64,000 bases of DNA. It comes from Polyangiaceae bacterium (GTDB taxonomy: Bacteria; Myxococcota_A; Polyangia; Polyangiales; Polyangiaceae). Location of the stretch: assembly GCA_025353725.1 (NCBI GenBank), contig JANXOF010000051.1, positions 124,001 to 188,000 on the forward strand, in the 5' to 3' direction. Below the pieces are notes generated by a model. That model was given only the letters and a program-made list of their open reading frames with translations. It had not been told where the DNA came from and did not search any database. Of this stretch, positions 53,737 through 62,497 are shown in pieces (the stretch's first letter is position 1; each line of letters starts with the position of its first letter). The position numbers and the translations under genes were made by a program.

Positions 53737-54486
53737 CTAAGTCGTTCGGAAGTCAGCCACGATGTGCACCTTTGACTCGAGCGGCGGCGCGCCTGGAAGG
53801 TGCTGCGTATCGACGAAGACCACGTCAGCCTCGGGGTTCATTTCGCGGAATGCGTTGCAGTTCCCAGGCTCGTTGTCGAACGCCGCAACGACATGCCCCA
53901 CGCGAGCGAGCTTCGGGCCCTCGTTGCGCTTGAAAAGCTCATCGGGGATCGACGCGTCGGGTTTGCAGACGAGCTCCGTGCCGACAACCCCGATCGGAAA
54001 GCCGAGGTCTCGGATGCTCTGAAAGGAACCCATACCCATCATCGGGAAATCACGCCCGGTGAAGTAAACGAGCGAAGCTCCCGCTGCGTAGCACGCGCGC
54101 GCAAAATCGACGGAACCGTCAAGTGCGATATCGTGTTTGAGATAATCGTCAGAGAAAAAGCGAGTTTTCCAAAACGCTTCAGCGCGCTTGGCGAGCTCGG
54201 GATGCTCGAGGCCGAGCTTCCGTAGTGTGTCCGTAAGCAAGTAAGCAAGGCTCTCGGCTTTCGCCGCGGCGATGGCCTCGGAGTGGGCGTGCGCTTCCTC
54301 ACGGAGCTCGAGGGCGAGCTCTTGAAGAATGGCCAGCGTGCGCGGTCGGTTGTCCATCAACGTGCCGTCGAGGTCGAAGACCACAACGGGGCTGGGGTGA
54401 CCGACGGTCGCCTTGCATCGCGCGACGATGCGCGCGAAGAGGTTGCGCTGGTCGACGAGGGAGAGGCGGGTAAAAGCGGTAACCAT
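53737..54486 (-). CDS. HAD-superfamily phosphatase
   Basis: This 249-residue soluble hydrolase has motif I VVFDLDGTLMDN with the nucleophilic Asp, a helical cap region rich in Lys/Glu, motif II LVYFTGRDFP, and the motif IV region VVAAFDNEPGNCNAF. The DNEPxN form resembles acid phosphatase or phosphoserine phosphatase-like HADs more than Cof types. ATG 54486 (MVTAFTRL) is preferred to the ATG 36 bases earlier. It lies 60 bases after the Bax1-like gene. The substrate is unknown. Confidence 0.85.
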   Translation of the reverse strand: MVTAFTRLSLVDQRNLFARIVARCKATVGHPSPVVVFDLDGTLMDNRPRTLAILQELALELREEAHAHSEAIAAAKAESLAYLLTDTLRKLGLEHPELAKRAEAFWKTRFFSDDYLKHDIALDGSVDFARACYAAGASLVYFTGRDFPMMGMGSFQSIRDLGFPIGVVGTELVCKPDASIPDELFKRNEGPKLARVGHVVAAFDNEPGNCNAFREMNPEADVVFVDTQHLPGAPPLESKVHIVADFRTT

Positions 54487-54546
54487 CGGGAAGCTGTGCG
54501 ACGTACCACAAGGTCGTCGCACACGGAAGCTCGGTGGCTGCGCCCG

Positions 54547-55740
54547 TCATGCGAGGCGCAGTGTTTGCGTCGCGGCGGCAATCAACGCGGACGCATCCAC
54601 GCGTCCCTGTCGATAGGGGAGAATCGTCGGCGCAGCCGACAAGGCACCTAGCGCGTGGCGCGCATCGACGCAGACAAGAATGGGAACCTCGACAGCGGCG
54701 AGGGCCTCCACTTTCTTGGCTAAGTATTGGGGATCCCAATAACCGACGATCTCGACGAGAACGCGGCTTGCCGTACCGCGCAAGCGAAGCGTGAAGTCTG
54801 GAAAAAAGAGGCGCCTTCCCACACGAATAACCGTATCCTCGCGCGTGAGTTCCCATTCCGCGTGAAACCTCCGCACGTCGCTCGCGAGGCGACGCTCGAC
54901 TGCACTGTCATGGGACTTCGGGAGCACGTGGAGAAGCGGGAGAGGCGCCGCGGCGTCGAGATCAAGCCCGTAGCGTGCACCGCGCAACACGACGTCCGCC
55001 CGCAAACTCCACCCCGCAGTCGTCGCGAGAGTCGGCAGGATGCCCGCGAGGGTACGCCCATACTTTAACGTCTCGTGAAACAAGGAGAGCGGCCCTGAGA
55101 GAGCTACTTCGGTCCCGTCGTCGCGGTCCTCGAACATCGCCATGAGCCCCATCAGCTTCGCGTAGCGGACGACGCTTCGCGTGTGCGCGCGAACCCGCGC
55201 GACCACACGCGTGGAGCGCATGAGAAAGGCCTGCGCAAGCGTCATGTTGTAGCGCTCGACCAAGTCGACCACGGAGGCCGCTTCCGCGGGCGGCTCGAGA
55301 GCGCGGGCGCTATTTCTATCGGCAAAAACGCACTTTTCGAGGATTTCGGCGCCGATCGAAAGCTCGCGAGACGCCTCGGCCAGCGCGGCGGAACGGCTTC
55401 GGCCGACCTTCGCGGAAAACAAGACCTCCCGGATACGCGCGGGTGCCAGTGGAGACGCTACGCGAGTCTTCCACCTTCGGCGCTCGGTCACCCAAACGCC
55501 CATCACCTGCTTGGCGCCCGCACCATGCCGCCGCGCTATCGGAACGACCGCCGTTCGGATGCGCTCGTCAGCGAGGCCCGCGGGTTGCTCGGAAAGCGCC
55601 TGGAGCTCCTCGGCGAGAACGCCGAGCCAAATGTGGTCGCTCGAGGTGAGCCAGTCAGGGACGATCCGCTCCACAAGCTCGCCCGTAGGTAGAGACTCAC
55701 GCGGGAGAAGCCGGTACCCGAGCCAACGATCCTGCAGCAT
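54547..55740 (-). CDS. Bax1/DUF790-family nuclease, partner of XPB-like helicase
   Basis: This 397-residue protein resembles archaeal Bax1, which binds XPB helicase and cuts DNA bubbles in nucleotide-excision-type repair. The C-terminal nuclease core reads LFFPDFTLRLRG then VLVEIVGYWDPQYLAKKVEAL, the PD...E-IVGxW pattern of DUF790. An upstream part has VERYNMTLAQAFLMRSTRVV. ATG 55740 has gagg six bases upstream and fits the family start. The first 44 bases overlap the end of the helicase gene, a tight coupling that supports a joint function. Confidence 0.86.
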   Translation of the reverse strand: MLQDRWLGYRLLPRESLPTGELVERIVPDWLTSSDHIWLGVLAEELQALSEQPAGLADERIRTAVVPIARRHGAGAKQVMGVWVTERRRWKTRVASPLAPARIREVLFSAKVGRSRSAALAEASRELSIGAEILEKCVFADRNSARALEPPAEAASVVDLVERYNMTLAQAFLMRSTRVVARVRAHTRSVVRYAKLMGLMAMFEDRDDGTEVALSGPLSLFHETLKYGRTLAGILPTLATTAGWSLRADVVLRGARYGLDLDAAAPLPLLHVLPKSHDSAVERRLASDVRRFHAEWELTREDTVIRVGRRLFFPDFTLRLRGTASRVLVEIVGYWDPQYLAKKVEALAAVEVPILVCVDARHALGALSAAPTILPYRQGRVDASALIAAATQTLRLA

Positions 55741-57085
55741 GCTTGCCTCGTGTGTTTGCTTTCCGTTCGTCGGTCGTGTCGGCCGTGACCAACTCAAAAA
55801 CGAGCGCGCGCTTTCCTGGCGCGGGCCTGAGCACGCGGCCGATACGCTGCACGTGCTCTCGTGCGCCGCCCATTCCCGCGACGATGATCGCAATGCGAGC
55901 ATCGGGCACGTCAATTCCCTCGTTTAATACGCGAGCAGACGCGATCGCCCGAAACCGGCCCGCGCGAAAGTGTTCGAGCGTTTTCTGGCGTTCTCGGGCA
56001 CTTGTCTCGGCGGCAATCACGGGTACGAGGTTGTCGAGCGCAACGGCGTAAGCATTTTCCGCGTACGCCGTGAAAACGATGGTGCGGTCCGCCTCGTGGC
56101 GCGCCAGCAGCTCGGCGACCAAACGACGCTTTGCTCGAGGAAACGCCGCGAGCTCCTGAGCTTTACCGTTGTCTCGCAGCGCTCGGCGCCCCTCTGCGCT
56201 CTCACCAAGCGCGCGTGCGAGTGTCGCGTAGTCGGCGCCGGGATAGGCGCGCGAAAAGGTGCGACACAGTTCGCGAAAGCGGCTCGTTCCTAACGCGTAG
56301 GCGGCGCGCTCATCGTCGTCCAACTGGACCGAAATGCGCGTAAGCGTGACGTGCGCAAGGTGCGTCCCGACGAGATCGCCAAACGCGAGTTCGAAGACCA
56401 CCGGGCCTACCATCTCGTCGAGACGCGCGGCCTGGTCGCAACCTCGTTCGGGCGCCGTGGCGGTCAGTCCGAGACGCGCAATCGCGGCGGAGGCCTCGAG
56501 CGCTTCGACGCGCATTCCCGAGCCGAAGTGATGAACTTCGTCGACGATAAGCAGACCAAAGCGGTCGCCAAGCATATCCATCTGGCGATAAGCACTCTCA
56601 AAGGTCATGACGGTGACGCGCTCGATTTGGCGTTCGCCATCGCCAAGCATACCAATAGGCTCCTTCAGCCAGGACGCGAGCTCGATGCGCCACGCCGTGA
56701 CAAGCGCTCGCGTGGGGCAAAGGACGGCTGTCGGGAGTCCAGTATCCAGGAGCGCGGCAATCGCTACGCGAGTCTTCCCTGCCCCCGTCGGCAAGACGAC
56801 GACGCCGCGACGTCCGAAGGCGCACCATGCTTTGAGTGCCTGCGACTGGTACGAGCGCAAGCCAAGATCGCAAGCGGCAGGAACACGGCGCGCCCACGAT
56901 GCGCGAAGGCCGTCGCTGAGGGTAACCCCTCGCGCCCCGATGACGTGAACGAGCTCGCGAAGGCGATACGCCGCCGCGCGGTGCCCCCCCGTCCGCGGAT
57001 CCCAAAGCGCGCCAGGAAGCTCGTCTACGCCGGCGCCCTCGAGCGAGAGCGTCCCACGCTCGAAGCGAATACTTGTCGGCGCCAT
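55697..57085 (-). CDS. XPB-like superfamily 2 DNA helicase
   Basis: This is a 462-residue helicase. The N-terminal 70 residues match the XPB-type damage-recognition region (SIRFERGTLSLEGAG, ALWDPRTGGHRAAAYRLREL). Helicase motifs: Walker A LPTGAGKTRVAIA (99-105), motif Ia CPTRALVTAW, motif II VDEVHHFG (182-185, DEVH), motif III GLTATAPE and motif VI QRIGRVLRP. The pairing with a Bax1-like gene and the short length (archaeal XPB is about 450) fit XPB and not the RecQ or UvrB families. I start at ATG 57085. The C-terminal tail is basic. Confidence 0.88.
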   Translation of the reverse strand: MAPTSIRFERGTLSLEGAGVDELPGALWDPRTGGHRAAAYRLRELVHVIGARGVTLSDGLRASWARRVPAACDLGLRSYQSQALKAWCAFGRRGVVVLPTGAGKTRVAIAALLDTGLPTAVLCPTRALVTAWRIELASWLKEPIGMLGDGERQIERVTVMTFESAYRQMDMLGDRFGLLIVDEVHHFGSGMRVEALEASAAIARLGLTATAPERGCDQAARLDEMVGPVVFELAFGDLVGTHLAHVTLTRISVQLDDDERAAYALGTSRFRELCRTFSRAYPGADYATLARALGESAEGRRALRDNGKAQELAAFPRAKRRLVAELLARHEADRTIVFTAYAENAYAVALDNLVPVIAAETSARERQKTLEHFRAGRFRAIASARVLNEGIDVPDARIAIIVAGMGGAREHVQRIGRVLRPAPGKRALVFELVTADTTDERKANTRGKHAAGSLARVPASPA

Positions 57086-57192
57086 GGCGATGGCCGAAAG
57101 CGAGATTCGTGCCTGCGCGCAGATGCGCCTTTGCCGAGAAACGCTAGGCGCGCGCACTGTCCGAGACAGCACGGACCGCGTCGCGCTCTGGT

Positions 57193-57972
57193 TTACTTCC
57201 GACGGAGGACGAGCTGGCCCATGACGCAAATGACGGGCGGCGCAGGACGCTCACCCATCGCAACGCTTCTCAAGTCGTGTGCCATCACGTCAAGCTCGCG
57301 TGTATCGAATGCGGAGACGGCGAACGGGTCACCGCGCCAGTGGGCCGCATTAAGCGCGTGGAGCTGCGCCATCGCTCTGGAATCGAGGACTAGCGTGCTC
57401 TGCACGAAGCTTTCGACATGCCAGTCTTCGGTAGTGGCGAGCGCAGGCAGACGTGAGCCGATATACATATCTTGGCCATAGTGGCTTTGAAGCTTCGCAA
57501 CGCGCGTGTAGTAATCAGAAAATGTGGGGTCTTCAGAGCCGAGCGCGCAATTCTCTTCAAGTACGAGCAAGCCTCCCCGTTTCATAGCAAGCGCACAAGC
57601 GTCGACGAGCGCCCGCGGCGACGCGAGGTGCGTCAAAACGTAGCGCGCGTACGCAACGTCGACGGAAGCGACGGGATATGGAGACTTAGTGACGTCATGG
57701 GCAGCCACGGTAACATCAACTGGAAGCCAACTCCGCGCGCGCTCTACGAGGCGCTCAGAGGCATCAAGTCCCCAAGTTCGTGCGGCGCGCACTGTGCGGT
57801 GCAGAAGCTCGGTCGTATAGCCAGGGCCGCAGCCTAGGTCGACCGCGAGTGACGAAGTCGCAGGCCGCACACTTTCGAGGAGCGCCGCGCTACTCGGTTC
57901 AAAAACGCGCGCAAGAAGCGAAAGCCGATCGGCGGCGCGGTCGTTATCTCCGAAGGTGTAGTGATGCGCCAT
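57193..57972 (-). CDS. SAM-dependent class I methyltransferase
   Basis: This 259-residue methyltransferase shows motif I VDLGCGPGYTTELL, LDASERLVERARSW and VDVAYARYVLTHLASP (motifs II-III), then MKRGGLLVLEEN. The pattern is that of UbiE/Methyltransf_11 small-molecule enzymes, not of RNA or protein methyltransferases. ATG 57972 lies 14 bases after the FabH-like gene stop and just before the family N-terminus. Being immediately downstream of a ketosynthase-like gene, it may methylate the product of the ThDP/FabH pair; this is inference. Confidence 0.88.
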   Translation of the reverse strand: MAHHYTFGDNDRAADRLSLLARVFEPSSAALLESVRPATSSLAVDLGCGPGYTTELLHRTVRAARTWGLDASERLVERARSWLPVDVTVAAHDVTKSPYPVASVDVAYARYVLTHLASPRALVDACALAMKRGGLLVLEENCALGSEDPTFSDYYTRVAKLQSHYGQDMYIGSRLPALATTEDWHVESFVQSTLVLDSRAMAQLHALNAAHWRGDPFAVSAFDTRELDVMAHDLRSVAMGERPAPPVICVMGQLVLRRK

Positions 57973-57986
57973 GTCGGTAGACAACG

Positions 57987-59000
57987 TTACACCATGTGAG
58001 CGTTCGCTGACCGATGCCACTGAAGCATCAGCGTGCCCACCGACATGCCGGACCCGAGACCGCAGAGGAGAATTCTGTCACCGTGTTTAAAAAGCCGTCG
58101 TTCCGCGCCATGATTGAGATTTATGAGAACATTTGCCGGACCGCAGTTCCCGTATTCTTTCCGCGTTTCGATGACTTTGTCCGCAGCTACTCCAATCCGA
58201 GCTACCCACTGCACGGAAACGGGTTTGACGTTTTGATGAGGGCACACCCAATCAACATCCGCGAGCGAAAGACGGACCTTCGCTAGTAAAGTCGCCACGG
58301 CGTTTGGAACCGCAGCCATACCCCACTCAACAAATTCTTTGGGATCGCCGCTACGCTCAAGGTCGATATAAAAGCGCGAACGCACGGAGCCATCCTCGAA
58401 CTGAGTCGTAAACTTAGGCTTTTTCACCTCGATGCCAACGTTTTCCCAATACTCGCCTTTAGCGGCCATGTGACTACCAAGTACGCCCGACGCCTCATCA
58501 ACCTCGCCGAGTACGACCGCCGCAGCACCGTCGCCGCAAACAGCGAAAACGGCTGGGTCGGAGAAATCCATCGCGCCCTGGAGCTGACACGATGCCACGA
58601 CAAGTATCTTTTTATACGCACCCGTTCGATGTAGAGCATGGGCTATCGCCAAAGACGGCACGGGGCTTATCAGGGACATATTAACTTCAAATGCAGCAGC
58701 GTTGAGCGCTTTTATCTTATGCTGCGTTAAAGCAATATTCGATGGGTTGGTTTTCTCGGGCAGCAGCGTTGAACCAATGATAAGATCGAGTTCTTCGGCT
58801 CTCCATCCCGCTCGTTTCAAAGCCTGCAACGACGCCGCTGACTCCAAGTCTGTCGCTGTTTCAAACGTCCCAACGTAATGAGCACCGACGTCCCAGGCGG
58901 CGAGCAGTTCCGGGTCTGCGCCGAGGGCAAGAAAATCGGGAATATCGACCTTTTTCGCCGGAAACGACGCCCCAGTTCCCACCACAGCAAGATGTTTCAA
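57987..59000 (-). CDS. FabH-like (KAS III) protein with catalytic Cys replaced by Leu
   Basis: This 337-residue protein has the thiolase fold of 3-oxoacyl-ACP synthase III. The active-site His (CPHQN, His255) and Asn (EYGNCGPAN, Asn285) are present, as are the GDGAAAVVLG and GLGSGMSVGTLM motifs. At the nucleophile position, where FabH has AFDVAAACAG, this protein reads AFEVNMSLIS, so Leu110 takes the place of Cys. It cannot form the usual acyl-enzyme. It may act as a decarboxylase, an acyltransferase without an acyl intermediate, or a non-catalytic partner. The gene is noticeably AT-richer than its neighbours (about 40-50 % G+C in places), suggesting separate origin. It lies nine bases after the ThDP gene. 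Confidence 0.88.
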   Translation of the reverse strand: MKHLAVVGTGASFPAKKVDIPDFLALGADPELLAAWDVGAHYVGTFETATDLESAASLQALKRAGWRAEELDLIIGSTLLPEKTNPSNIALTQHKIKALNAAAFEVNMSLISPVPSLAIAHALHRTGAYKKILVVASCQLQGAMDFSDPAVFAVCGDGAAAVVLGEVDEASGVLGSHMAAKGEYWENVGIEVKKPKFTTQFEDGSVRSRFYIDLERSGDPKEFVEWGMAAVPNAVATLLAKVRLSLADVDWVCPHQNVKPVSVQWVARIGVAADKVIETRKEYGNCGPANVLINLNHGAERRLFKHGDRILLCGLGSGMSVGTLMLQWHRSANAHMV

Positions 59001-59009
59001 GGAGTTAGT

Positions 59010-60761
59010 TCACGGCTCGACGAAACCGGCAATCGACTTCGCGCGATCTCCGAGCGGTGGCGCAATGGCACCATCGACGCGCACCTCGATAAGCGAAGGG
59101 CCTGAGTGGCCAAGAGCCTCTCGTACAGCTCCTTGGATTTGTCCTGGGCGATCTACCACCCACGCCGCGAGGCCCATGGCTCGCGCTATGGCAGCGACCT
59201 CGAGCGGCCGCTTGTATCGGACCGAGGCCAGCGGGACACGGGAACCAACCAGCTTGGAACCGTGCCACGTAATTCCGTGCATGTTGTTATTTTCGACGAT
59301 CCAGATCACGCGTACTCCGTATTCAGCCGCAGTGACGAGCTCCATTCCATTCATCGTAAAACACGCGTCACCGATGATAGCAAAGACCGGTCGCTGTCTG
59401 TCTACAAGCGCCGCACCAATGGGAGCTACGGTTCCGTGGCCCATGGAACCGAAGCCTAAATTCAATACGAATTTTTGACCTTCTTTGATCGTTAGGTAGT
59501 GAATATTCGACAGCATGTGGCCCCCGATATCCGAAAATATAACCGCGTTTTTCGGCAAGACCTCCTCAAGGTCCTTTCGCCATCGTTGAGGAGCGAGAGG
59601 TAACTGCTCCGACGTGCGCAACTCGGGCGAAGAAAATACACGGGGCGTTGGCGGCTCGCGGGCCCACACGGAAGCCGACCGCTCTCCTTCCCGCATCAAA
59701 CGATGCAAGTGGTAAACGAGCTCGACTAAGACGGTTTGAGCGTCACCCACAAGGGCCACGTCCACCGGGTAGTTGCGACCAATTTTATCGGAATCGATAT
59801 CGAGCTGAATGAAGACGCGATTTCTCCTCAGCTCGGGCGCCCAATTCAACGTCGCCGTTTCATTGAGCGACGTTCCGACTGTCAAAAGTACGTCAACTTC
59901 GCTCCCAAGCAAAACATCGCGCGCTCCGGCATGCCCCGCGAAGCCCATGACTCCAAGCGACAGCGCATGGTCTTCCGGGAAGAGGCCTTTACCGCGTGGG
60001 GTCGTCGCGACGCGTGCCGGCAAAAGTTCGGCAAGCGCTCGGAGGTGCTCTTCGCCGCCCGCAATGCCCACTCCCCCACCTGCAAAGAGTACGGGCCGCC
60101 TCGCATTGAGAAGGTACGCTGCCGCGCGCTGGACAGCGACGCGATCGAAGGTTTTCGTATCGGGCCGATACGTTTTCGGGTCGAACCATGCTTCTGCCAA
60201 CGGACGCTCCCAGAGGTCGACGGGCACGTTCAGGTGCACAGGGCCGGGACGACCCGAGAGCGCGTGCCTTAGAGCGCGCCGAAGGTGCTGCGCCATGCTC
60301 TCGGGCGATGTGACCATAGCCGAATACTTCGTCACCGGACGAAACATGGCCACGATGTCCATATCCTCACGAGAGGTTTCTTGCGCCGCGCCTTTGCCGA
60401 ACATGTGACTGGCGACTTGTCCAGTCACCACGAGCATCGGTACGCCATCGGCAAACGCGCATGCCACGCCCGTGATCATGTTCGTCGCGCCAGGTCCAGA
60501 CGTACCGGCGCACACGGAGAGTCGCCGACTCATGCGGGAGTAGCCGTCGGCCATAAAGGCGGCTCCCTCCTCATGTTTTGACACCACGAGTTCAATATCG
60601 GGGTCCGCCTCGACAACCTCGAAGAACGGATGGAGCAAGCCTCCTGGAATTCCGAACACAACACTTACGCCTTCGGCTTTCAAGTAACGAAGGAAGACAT
60701 CGATAGCTCGCGGAGCCGCGCGAACGGTGGTGACCTTAGGTGGAGGGAGAGAAATCGTCAC
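59010..60761 (-). CDS. Acetolactate-synthase-like ThDP-dependent enzyme
   Basis: This 583-residue enzyme has the three-domain layout of acetohydroxyacid synthase. The Pyr domain has FGIPGGLLHPFFEVV and the catalytic Glu64 in SKHEEGAAFMADGYSR. The central domain shows LLNARRPVLFAGGGVG. The PP domain has IGDACFTMNGMELVTAAEYG and WIVENNNMHG for ThDP/Mg binding. Such enzymes couple a pyruvate-derived two-carbon unit or another alpha-keto acid to an aldehyde or keto acid. No small regulatory subunit (ilvN) is nearby, so branched-chain amino-acid synthesis is not the likely role. The GTG start overlaps the stop of the sensor kinase (GTGA). Confidence 0.87.
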   Translation of the reverse strand: MTISLPPPKVTTVRAAPRAIDVFLRYLKAEGVSVVFGIPGGLLHPFFEVVEADPDIELVVSKHEEGAAFMADGYSRMSRRLSVCAGTSGPGATNMITGVACAFADGVPMLVVTGQVASHMFGKGAAQETSREDMDIVAMFRPVTKYSAMVTSPESMAQHLRRALRHALSGRPGPVHLNVPVDLWERPLAEAWFDPKTYRPDTKTFDRVAVQRAAAYLLNARRPVLFAGGGVGIAGGEEHLRALAELLPARVATTPRGKGLFPEDHALSLGVMGFAGHAGARDVLLGSEVDVLLTVGTSLNETATLNWAPELRRNRVFIQLDIDSDKIGRNYPVDVALVGDAQTVLVELVYHLHRLMREGERSASVWAREPPTPRVFSSPELRTSEQLPLAPQRWRKDLEEVLPKNAVIFSDIGGHMLSNIHYLTIKEGQKFVLNLGFGSMGHGTVAPIGAALVDRQRPVFAIIGDACFTMNGMELVTAAEYGVRVIWIVENNNMHGITWHGSKLVGSRVPLASVRYKRPLEVAAIARAMGLAAWVVDRPGQIQGAVREALGHSGPSLIEVRVDGAIAPPLGDRAKSIAGFVEP

Positions 60762-62497
60762 AGGGCTTCGGCCTTCCGAATCGTCACAACGCGCATAATC
60801 ATGCTTTCGAGGTTGTCATCAGGCACCACGGATTGCTCATCGCTTGGAGGGCTGGCAGGGAAATGAGCCCAGAATGTCGTCCCGACGCCAGCTTTAGTCA
60901 TCACGTCCAGCCGACCGCCGATTTGGGCCAAGAGCCGTACCACGCTCGATAAGCCGATACCGTAGCTGTTGGCGCGCTGAGCAGGCTCGTTCGCAGGACG
61001 AGGTCGGAAGATGCGATCGACCTGAGCGGCGGGAATGCCCTGCCCCGTGTCGCACAGCTTGAGGGTGAGAAAACCAGGACTGGCCGGTGGTCCACTCTCC
61101 CCTGGTGAGCGCTGAGACGTCGCCGGCGTCCCGCAAATTTCAAGGAGGATACTTCCTTTATCAGTGTACTTTGCAGCATTCGTGAGAATGTTGTCCACCA
61201 CGCGGTCGAAAACGAGGGGGTCGACAACGATCTCATCGGGTGCTTCACGGCTGCAAAACACGGTCACTTTAATCTCACGCCCGTGTACGAGCGCCTTTAA
61301 GCGACGGCGGAAGGTCTCGACAAGCGGAGCGACGGCAACGGGAACGGGGGCGAGCTTCAAAAGTCCAGTGTCCGCAGTGACGACCGCCATGAGCTTCGTC
61401 AGCATCACCTCTATCTGCGCAGCTGCGGTCTCCATATCCCTTAGGGCATCGCCCTGAAGGCCTCCTTTAATAGTGTCTGCGAGGAACTGCGTGTTACCGC
61501 GCAAGACAAAAAGTGGGTTTCGTAAATCGTGGGAGAACCCTTTCATGCTCGAAACGCGCGTTTCCTGAATTCCATCGAGGCTTTTGACCACTCCCTCGAG
61601 TGCGGCAGTCCGTTCTTGAACTTGCTCCTCCATGACGCGAATCCACTCGCGTTGACGTTGGTTCAACGCCACGATCTCGGAGCGAGCTTCGGCCTCGTCG
61701 TCCCCCACGGTGCGAAGCACGGCGTTTACGTCATTGGCGAACCGAAGGTTGCTCGCGCTGGTGCGTCGAAGGTCAAAAAGGTGGGCCGCGCCAGCCCCGA
61801 ACAGCGGCAGAAGCGCAAAAGCTGTCCACGGGTGAACTGTTGCTGGGATGAAAAGTGCGGCGAGAGCGCCGACTCCGAACCCGGCAAGGACCGGTGTTCG
61901 TCGACTTCGTTGAAACCACGAAAGTTGGTATTCACAACATTTGTCACCGTTCGCGACGCAGCCGTTTTCGATGAGCTGCGCGAGCGGCAGGCCCCACATG
62001 GTTGGCCCATAAACAAATGCAGCTTGGCGTGAGAGACACAAAAGTCGAGATTCGGCCTTGTCGGATGTATATCGAACTCCAAAGGTCAAGCGACTCGATT
62101 CAAGCACTTCAAACCGACTGGCTCGCAACATCTGCTTCGACATTTTGGCTGCCGATTCAAAAAATTGCTGGACCGAGAGCGCGCGAACCATCAGACGAAC
62201 CGGTCCCATGCTCTCGAAGAATTCCTCACCGCACGCACGAAGAAACGCGGCGTCGTCCGAGACCAGCCCTCGTGCGAGTGCGTTGAAGTGCTCGACTTGA
62301 CCCAGGCTGAGCCAATGCGTAGCGCCATCGATTTCGGACGCTCGGAAGGCGCTCGAGCTAGCTAGCTCGTCGAGCTTCGCAGCACCGTGGTGCTTGGCGA
62401 CCCAGCGCGCGAGGGCGGAGAGGATCTTCGCGTTGAACTCGGCGGGCGCGCGTGGTTCGGCGGCCAGCGCCGACAGATGCCCAGGTCGCTCGCTCAT
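60758..62497 (-). CDS. Membrane sensor histidine kinase with V4R-like input domain
   Basis: This 579-residue protein has an N-terminal cytoplasmic domain (about 1-195) with GPTMWGLPLAQLIENGC and GDKCCEY: Cys180, 187 and 188 and the surrounding fold resemble V4R (4-vinyl reductase) domains that bind small ligands or metal. Two membrane helices (202-219 and 224-240) are followed by a coiled region, then the kinase: H-box KGFSHDLRNPL with His323, N-box NILTNAAKY, DTGQGIP and YGIGLSSVVRL. No response regulator is adjacent. ATG 62497 is preferred to a longer in-frame start. Its stop overlaps the ThDP-enzyme start, so sensor and enzyme are translated together. Confidence 0.87.
   Translation of the reverse strand: MSERPGHLSALAAEPRAPAEFNAKILSALARWVAKHHGAAKLDELASSSAFRASEIDGATHWLSLGQVEHFNALARGLVSDDAAFLRACGEEFFESMGPVRLMVRALSVQQFFESAAKMSKQMLRASRFEVLESSRLTFGVRYTSDKAESRLLCLSRQAAFVYGPTMWGLPLAQLIENGCVANGDKCCEYQLSWFQRSRRTPVLAGFGVGALAALFIPATVHPWTAFALLPLFGAGAAHLFDLRRTSASNLRFANDVNAVLRTVGDDEAEARSEIVALNQRQREWIRVMEEQVQERTAALEGVVKSLDGIQETRVSSMKGFSHDLRNPLFVLRGNTQFLADTIKGGLQGDALRDMETAAAQIEVMLTKLMAVVTADTGLLKLAPVPVAVAPLVETFRRRLKALVHGREIKVTVFCSREAPDEIVVDPLVFDRVVDNILTNAAKYTDKGSILLEICGTPATSQRSPGESGPPASPGFLTLKLCDTGQGIPAAQVDRIFRPRPANEPAQRANSYGIGLSSVVRLLAQIGGRLDVMTKAGVGTTFWAHFPASPPSDEQSVVPDDNLESMIMRVVTIRKAEAL

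Follow-up and report, generated by a model that had tools for sequence, protein, structure and literature searches.

A conserved gene pair of a sensor kinase and a thiamin diphosphate enzyme in Myxococcota as a candidate small-molecule signalling operon

Does an operon that encodes both a sensor histidine kinase and a carboligase-type enzyme make a small molecule and sense it? The question is raised by four minus-strand genes in a 64,000-nucleotide stretch of the genome of a Polyangiaceae bacterium (assembly GCA_025353725.1, contig JANXOF010000051.1, positions 124,001 to 188,000), which is referred to here as the window. The genes encode a sensor kinase, a thiamin diphosphate (ThDP)-dependent enzyme, a FabH-like protein of the KASIII type and a methyltransferase, and the original prediction treated them as one unit linking the synthesis of a small molecule to its detection. 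All four genes were confirmed where that prediction had placed them, with the overlaps and gaps it described. The stop of the kinase gene (60758..62497, ATG start, minus strand) is overlapped by 4 bases of the ThDP gene (59010..60761, minus strand; GTG start, 583 amino acids), and the FabH-like gene (57987..59000, minus strand) starts 9 bases after the ThDP gene. The methyltransferase gene (57193..58020, minus strand) begins 14 bases past the FabH-like gene when read from the ATG at 57972 and overlaps it when read from the GTG at 58020.

The explanation that we favor, with a probability of roughly 0.45, is a signalling operon with a two-gene core, in which the product of the ThDP enzyme is made with a partner protein and sensed by the kinase. 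The ThDP enzyme would form an acyloin or an alpha-hydroxy-beta-keto acid, by coupling either 2-oxo acids with each other or one 2-oxo acid with an aldehyde or an acyl group. A partner with an acyl-coenzyme A (CoA)-handling fold, usually a citryl-CoA-lyase-like pair and in the window a KASIII without its Cys, would act on or with this product. The H-NOX/V4R-like domain of the kinase would bind either this product or the acyl substrate, and the phosphorylation of the kinase would change. The ThDP activity, the partner role, the ligand, the direction of signalling and the involvement of a response regulator are what we infer in this scheme. Synthesis and sensing of a small molecule by the operon is a good hypothesis, and a hydroxyketone-type product is possible. 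The myxobacterial pheromone stigmolone had been mentioned in this connection, and nothing was found that points to it.

Conservation of the kinase and ThDP enzyme pair

An alignment of the ThDP enzyme was used to scan the genome_contigs collection (84,980 species), and the best 80 of 87 matches represent 73 distinct loci, which are not a census. The close ThDP clade consists of 35 of these loci (L085-L116 and L119-L121) with 57-87% identity. Its carriers are mostly Myxococcota metagenome bins, together with one named strain, Paraliomyxa miuraensis SMH-27-4 (L102), two loci from Fermentibacterota (L089, L111) and one titled Candidatus Sabulitectum (L104). Many loci are metagenome contigs whose taxon labels may be wrong (L113, L094, L107). 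In a sample of 377 Myxococcota genomes, copies of the ThDP enzyme with at least 58% identity occurred in 15, the genome of the window included, and the next match had 43%. All 276 of 276 records from a plasmid collection fell below 60% identity, the best among the matches listed being about 31%.

A kinase core was identified on the same strand, at most 200 bp upstream of the ThDP match, in 29 of the 35 close-clade loci. The kinase-core profile derives from the window kinase and those of 22 of the 35 loci, so it favours them, and more distant kinases could escape it. A tblastn search with the window kinase alone identified the identical 29 loci and none of 30 control loci. These controls (L126-L135, L137-L150 and L152-L157) carry ThDP relatives of 25-32% identity, and neither the profile nor tblastn detected the kinase core in any of the 30 within up to 10 kb on each side, little flanking DNA being present in L130, L138, L148 and L156. 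The profile did reach the distant GAF kinases of L117, L118 and L151. At the level of sequence, the conserved unit is the pair of kinase and ThDP enzyme, which occurs together more than by chance (29/35 versus 0/30).

The six remaining loci differ in what they contain. Fewer than 500 bases are present upstream in L105, L106 and L120. In L107 the kinase is found downstream instead, after the two genes A and B described below, and in L109 the downstream protein is 24% identical to that of L107, with a PAS match as the only one seen before the contig ends. The sixth, L113 (DLHW01000025.1, titled Methylococcaceae), has a broken contig end; its partial ThDP gene lies at that end and is preceded by inverted, broken ThDP-like stretches, and the record is perhaps misassembled or mislabelled. 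Scattering of the four window genes in relatives had been proposed as a refutation of the system; the pair stays together, whereas the four-gene set does not. Between the window and L085, nonsynonymous divergence (dN) was 0.10-0.23; synonymous sites were saturated, which made dS unusable, and no codon rates were obtained for FabH.

More distant ThDP relatives are also linked to signalling genes. In nine loci with relatives of 35-40% identity (L080-L084, L123-L125 and L136) the ThDP gene is next to a KASIII gene, and in six of the nine (L080, L081, L082, L084, L123 and L136) a kinase, in some loci a hybrid kinase, directly follows the KASIII gene; no kinase was found in L083, L124 or L125. A helix-turn-helix receiver protein is encoded just upstream in L081, L082 and L123. 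In L136 (9500-11710, plus strand) the ThDP enzyme itself has an N-terminal receiver domain (E 2.3e-21); a KASIII without the Cys and a hybrid kinase come next. Three loci with relatives of 41-42% identity (L117, L118 and L151, two of which are titled Elusimicrobia) have a kinase gene after the ThDP gene, and the kinases of L118 and L151 contain GAF domains. In the Chloroflexota locus L122 (9636-13618, plus strand; 41%) the ThDP frame is split into two open reading frames; a STAS gene immediately precedes it, and a gene for an RsbW-like ATPase comes one gene further on. A profile of the window-type sensor domain matched L082 alone (0.0015) among the loci of the more distant ThDP genes, and a profile-profile comparison with four distant-locus kinases (84%, E 7e-6), being a single comparison, is suggestive only. 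The repeated tie between the ThDP family and signalling genes with differing sensors, as seen in gene neighbourhoods, speaks for a function in signalling and against a single ligand throughout.

The sensor domain of the kinase

The open frame of the window kinase reaches 62617 from a GTG codon. The ATG at 62497 was preferred as the start because L085 aligns Met-Ser-Glu there. The protein consists of an N-terminal sensor domain, a hydrophobic hairpin at about residues 240-283, which is the sole strong membrane candidate (by hydropathy only), and HisKA and HATPase_c domains, both of which exceed the Pfam cut-offs. The sensor domain is predicted to be cytoplasmic. All 23 aligned kinases end in a conserved short C-terminal tail (VVTIRK-like), which is at about 60761-60790 (minus strand) in the window.

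The sensor domain as modelled (61913..62440, minus strand; 176 amino acids) is predicted to have an H-NOX/V4R/Bet3-type fold. The AlphaFold2 model, calculated with 23 orthologous domains, had a predicted local distance difference test score (pLDDT) of 94.8 and a predicted template modelling (TM) score of 0.89. Foldseek gave H-NOX domains as the best matches (TM about 0.7), followed by the phenol-sensor domain of MopR and palmitate-bound TRAPPC3. With VIA-align, the model matched H-NOX with Z 13.4 over 170 residues (root-mean-square deviation 3.4), the N-domain of VirS with Z 12.8, a tie with H-NOX, and Bet3 with Z 9.7. Fold matches to H-NOX (heme), MopR (phenols) and TRAPPC3/Bet3 (palmitate) were counted for the signalling operon.

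The original description of this domain as V4R-like thus holds in the wide sense of the fold comparison, but not in the sense of a family match, since neither the Pfam V4R model (PF02830) nor the other families matched the window sensor domain. Among the 23 aligned sensor domains, weak matches were found for V4R in 8 (best E 0.0008), for the AraC-type N-terminal domain PF12625 in 9 (best 1.4e-5) and for HNOB in 7. The sensor profile identified nothing convincing among PDB sequences (best E 0.026). Two V4R matches occur in the genome of the window, both away from the window kinase, and a second protein of this genome has a related sensor domain (L159; contig C92, 32741-33391, plus strand; E 1.3e-8 and 1.1e-6).

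The strongest alternative, which we consider somewhat unlikely, is that the kinase does no more than regulate the operon, or metabolism nearby, on a cue unrelated to the product, such as nitric oxide, redox state or heme, and that the product of the ThDP enzyme is an ordinary specialised metabolite. The heme-binding H-NOX domains are the best fold matches, and a YxSxR-like pattern is common in the 23 sensor domains when scored column by column (Tyr in 21, Ser in 17, Arg in 13 and Lys in 5 more). A helix-end column that is a candidate for the proximal heme His, picked from secondary structure and not from a residue-level structural alignment, is His in 11 of the 23, but the window has Lys there and L085 has Gln. 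Three further columns are Cys in 23/23, 21/23 and 23/23 of the domains, a feature that is V4R-like rather than H-NOX-like. Heme binding by the sensor domain is uncertain. The other sensor parts of kinases beside distant ThDP genes are also consistent with control by an unrelated cue.

Partner genes and the ThDP enzyme

Two genes, A (about 230 amino acids) and B (about 265 amino acids), follow the ThDP gene in 26 of the 35 close-clade loci. In L093 gene A is present and the contig then ends, in L088 both genes are upstream of the kinase, and the contigs of L101 and L113 are too short to show a partner. In four loci (L085, L090, L095 and L106) a KASIII gene is found in place of A and B. The profiles of A and B were built from 13 A and 12 B proteins only; both genes are frame-broken in L104 and gene A in L112. 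The best PDB match for both profiles was citryl-CoA lyase 6hxp (E 4.6e-8 for A, 1.4e-13 for B), and NCBIfam citryl-CoA-lyase models matched at most 11 of 12 B proteins (best 8.5e-15), far below the cut-offs where these are shown. Citryl-CoA-lyase chains were also the best fold matches (TM about 0.6) for the model of A (pLDDT 86.7). Proteins A and B thus resemble 6hxp in sequence and fold; unlike in that enzyme, all 11 intact aligned B proteins have Val in place of the GHxxY His, and the AHGG-type His is kept in 3 of 12 (L103, L108 and L116). We take both of these His residues to be catalytic in citryl-CoA lyase. A profile search of the genome of the window, run without a positive-control genome, did not find a B protein.

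In the window the partner is the FabH-like protein, in which PF08541 and PF08545 score above their cut-offs; with the FabH subfamily model TIGR00747 it scores 133.1, short of the cut-off of 292.1. The prediction that it lacks the active-site Cys was correct: in an alignment with PDB 4ryb, Leu is present at the catalytic Cys position, and the His and Asn, to which we assign their presumed KASIII roles, are retained. The L085 copy (70% identity) likewise has Leu. Fourteen KASIII proteins beside ThDP genes were inspected (the window, L080-L085, L090, L095, L106, L123-L125 and L136), and the Cys is lost in four (Leu in the window and L085, Ser in L123 and Ala in L136) and kept in ten. Among the 73 loci, no FabH of the window type was found outside the window and L085. 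Orthologues elsewhere were sought in the 377-genome sample, with at most five candidates per genome scored, and rejected: outside the window, identity was at most 33% among the matches listed.

The window, L085 and L112 share one chromosomal site, with a DnaJ gene upstream (plus strand in the window) and genes for 440- and 226-amino-acid proteins downstream. L085 is identical to the window at 87% of positions in the ThDP enzyme, 67% in the kinase and 70% in FabH, and L112 at 79% in the ThDP enzyme and 56% in the kinase. At this site L112 has A and B, with A split over two frames, and the window and L085 have FabH. In the ThDP tree the window groups with L085 (100/98) and these two with L112 (100/100). 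The next fork, which joins these three with eight more, is not strongly supported (91/87), and A and B are present in 7 of its 11 rows. The tree omits L104, L105, L113, L119, L120 and L122, and from L126 onward it includes L136 alone; of long proteins, only the last 590 residues were used. The simplest reading of these sequences is that FabH replaced A and B at the site of the window and L085. The KASIII fold and that of the citryl-CoA-lyase-like proteins both belong to carbon-carbon chemistry on acyl-CoA, and at this one site one substitutes for the other.

Of the four window genes, FabH is the poorest in G+C (54%; 55% at third positions), and this may reflect a recent arrival; the L085 copy, with 90% G+C at third positions, counts against that reading. 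A HAD-family hydrolase gene (53737..54522, minus strand), which adjoins FabH in L085 and was not found in L112, may have arrived with FabH.

A second alternative is that the partners are non-catalytic, acting as CoA- or acyl-ACP (acyl carrier protein)-binding subunits that tune the ThDP enzyme or the kinase to acyl-CoA levels, so that the operon reads metabolic state. We regard this as improbable. The missing Cys in 4 of 14 KASIII proteins and the Val in all 11 intact B proteins would fit it, whereas 10 of the 14 KASIII proteins keep the Cys.

The ThDP enzyme exceeds the cut-offs for all three TPP domains (TPP_enzyme N, M and C), and no pyridoxal phosphate (PLP) family was listed for it in the domain scan. 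Its orthologues retain H63/E64 and a GD...NN motif, which we take to be ThDP-related residues. The nearest solved relatives are BbmA (8x3x; 443 bits, E 1.6e-131), with which it has a GKGAxQE stretch in common, and CsmA (8x3z; 335 bits), followed by acetohydroxyacid synthase (AHAS) at 241 bits. No literature on the BbmA and CsmA pathways was found, so their reaction is not transferable to the window enzyme.

The third alternative is primary metabolism, in which the ThDP enzyme would be an AHAS, an acetolactate synthase or some other carboligase of housekeeping metabolism, accompanied by a regulatory kinase. The enzyme is the best match of its genome to the AHAS large-subunit model TIGR00118, but its 389.7 bits are below the curated cut-off of 538.35, and no AHAS small-subunit gene was recognised among the scanned neighbours. 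IlvC (ketol-acid reductoisomerase) and IlvD (dihydroxyacid dehydratase) had no match at E 0.001 in this genome, which is 97.55% complete, although 14 of 14 controls matched in each search. A branched-chain AHAS role was rejected as unlikely because of the missing IlvC and IlvD matches, and for the same reason this enzyme is unlikely to be the only AHAS of the cell; the organism is possibly a branched-chain amino acid auxotroph. Five further genomes (G239, G295, G046, G056 and G102) hold an orthologue plus another ThDP enzyme of 34-37% identity. Overall, primary metabolism is very unlikely.

The methyltransferase had been described as UbiE-type, a description that is not supported, as the UbiE model scored 21.6 bits against a cut-off of 216; from its sequence it is a general class I S-adenosylmethionine methyltransferase. 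It had no match among the 73 ThDP loci at E 1e-3, and at E 1e-15 it was identified among 58 genomes only in that of the window, G272 and G177. Genes for an XPB-like helicase and a DUF790 protein adjoin it (54547-57229, minus strand) and, like it, are absent from both L085 and L112; relative to these loci the three genes were inserted together. Downstream of the operon these two genes and the HAD gene are all on the minus strand. The adjoining XPB-like and DUF790 genes are reminiscent of the archaeal XPB-Bax1 repair pair. The methyltransferase, lying in this insertion, was rejected as a system member: it is probably outside the system because it has no match in the 73 loci and is absent from L085 and L112. 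Thus, of the unit originally proposed, the kinase and ThDP pair stands (29/35), while FabH is limited to the window and L085 and the methyltransferase recurs in none of the 73 loci. The proposed link between synthesis and detection keeps the conserved pair and a ligand-type domain, but not the four-gene unit.

Weighing the signalling operon against known systems

Several points weigh against the proposed signalling operon. First, the neighbours of the window operon include no identified regulator gene, and L092 has the kinase and ThDP pair without a partner. Secondly, the phospho-acceptor His motif is lost in 3 of 23 aligned kinases (L087, L092 and L102), which may, on these alignments, be pseudokinases. 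Third, a cytoplasmic sensor would require uptake or diffusion of the signal for cell-to-cell signalling. In addition, the partners may not do acyl chemistry, since the window KASIII is without its Cys and most residues of the citryl-CoA-lyase motifs are gone from the aligned B proteins. No receiver match was obtained for the N-terminal extensions of the long ThDP proteins in L080, L084 and L124. Lastly, the sensor parts of kinases beside more distant ThDP genes are of other kinds or unrecognised (for example, GAF in L118 and L151 and PAS in L107), and therefore what is sensed need not be the ThDP product.

The signalling operon can be compared with systems that have some of its components. In the xenocyloin system of Xenorhabdus, an acyloin-forming ThDP enzyme is found with KASIII-like proteins, which is presumably a likeness to the window; that system is not known to include a kinase. 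In the Cqs and Lqs systems of Vibrio and Legionella, the available account describes a synthase, a PLP enzyme, in one cluster with its cognate kinase, a receptor of six helices (PMC3376566). Like CqsA/CqsS and LqsA/LqsS as described there, the window system encodes a carbon-carbon bond-forming enzyme together with a sensor histidine kinase (29/35 loci), although the making of a signal by this enzyme is here a proposal. Unlike the PLP synthase and six membrane helices of that account, the window has a ThDP enzyme and a soluble-type H-NOX/V4R-like sensor with one hydrophobic stretch. In carquinostatin and neocarazostatin biosynthesis, a ThDP enzyme couples indole-3-pyruvate with pyruvate and a KASIII-like enzyme condenses the product with an acyl-ACP; by the available text, ThDP and KASIII enzymes are a proven biosynthetic pair in carbazole pathways, and related clusters are noted in Sorangium (PMC7466098). 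The window resembles CqsB3/CqsB1 and NzsH/NzsJ of these pathways in combining a ThDP carboligase with a KASIII-like enzyme, a likeness by description and not by sequence. It differs in its Cys-less KASIII and in its kinase, none being mentioned in the available text on the carbazole systems.

No description of this operon was found among the open-licence PMC papers listed, as judged by titles and abstract starts, and the suggestion of a system worth following was borne out for the kinase and ThDP system. A bolder and rather doubtful proposal is that it represents a new class of small-molecule signalling, in which a ThDP synthase and an interchangeable partner, drawn from retired acyl-CoA condensing enzymes, would make a ketone-type signal read by an H-NOX/V4R-like kinase pocket; given the receiver fusion of L136, phosphorelay and synthesis may control each other. 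The exchange of A and B for a Cys-less KASIII at one site would be a natural experiment on the residual function of "retired" enzymes, and the named-strain carrier Paraliomyxa miuraensis SMH-27-4 makes the system testable. If true, the proposal would add a further chemistry to the known pairs of synthase and kinase in signalling and give myxobacteria a route to ketone-type signals.

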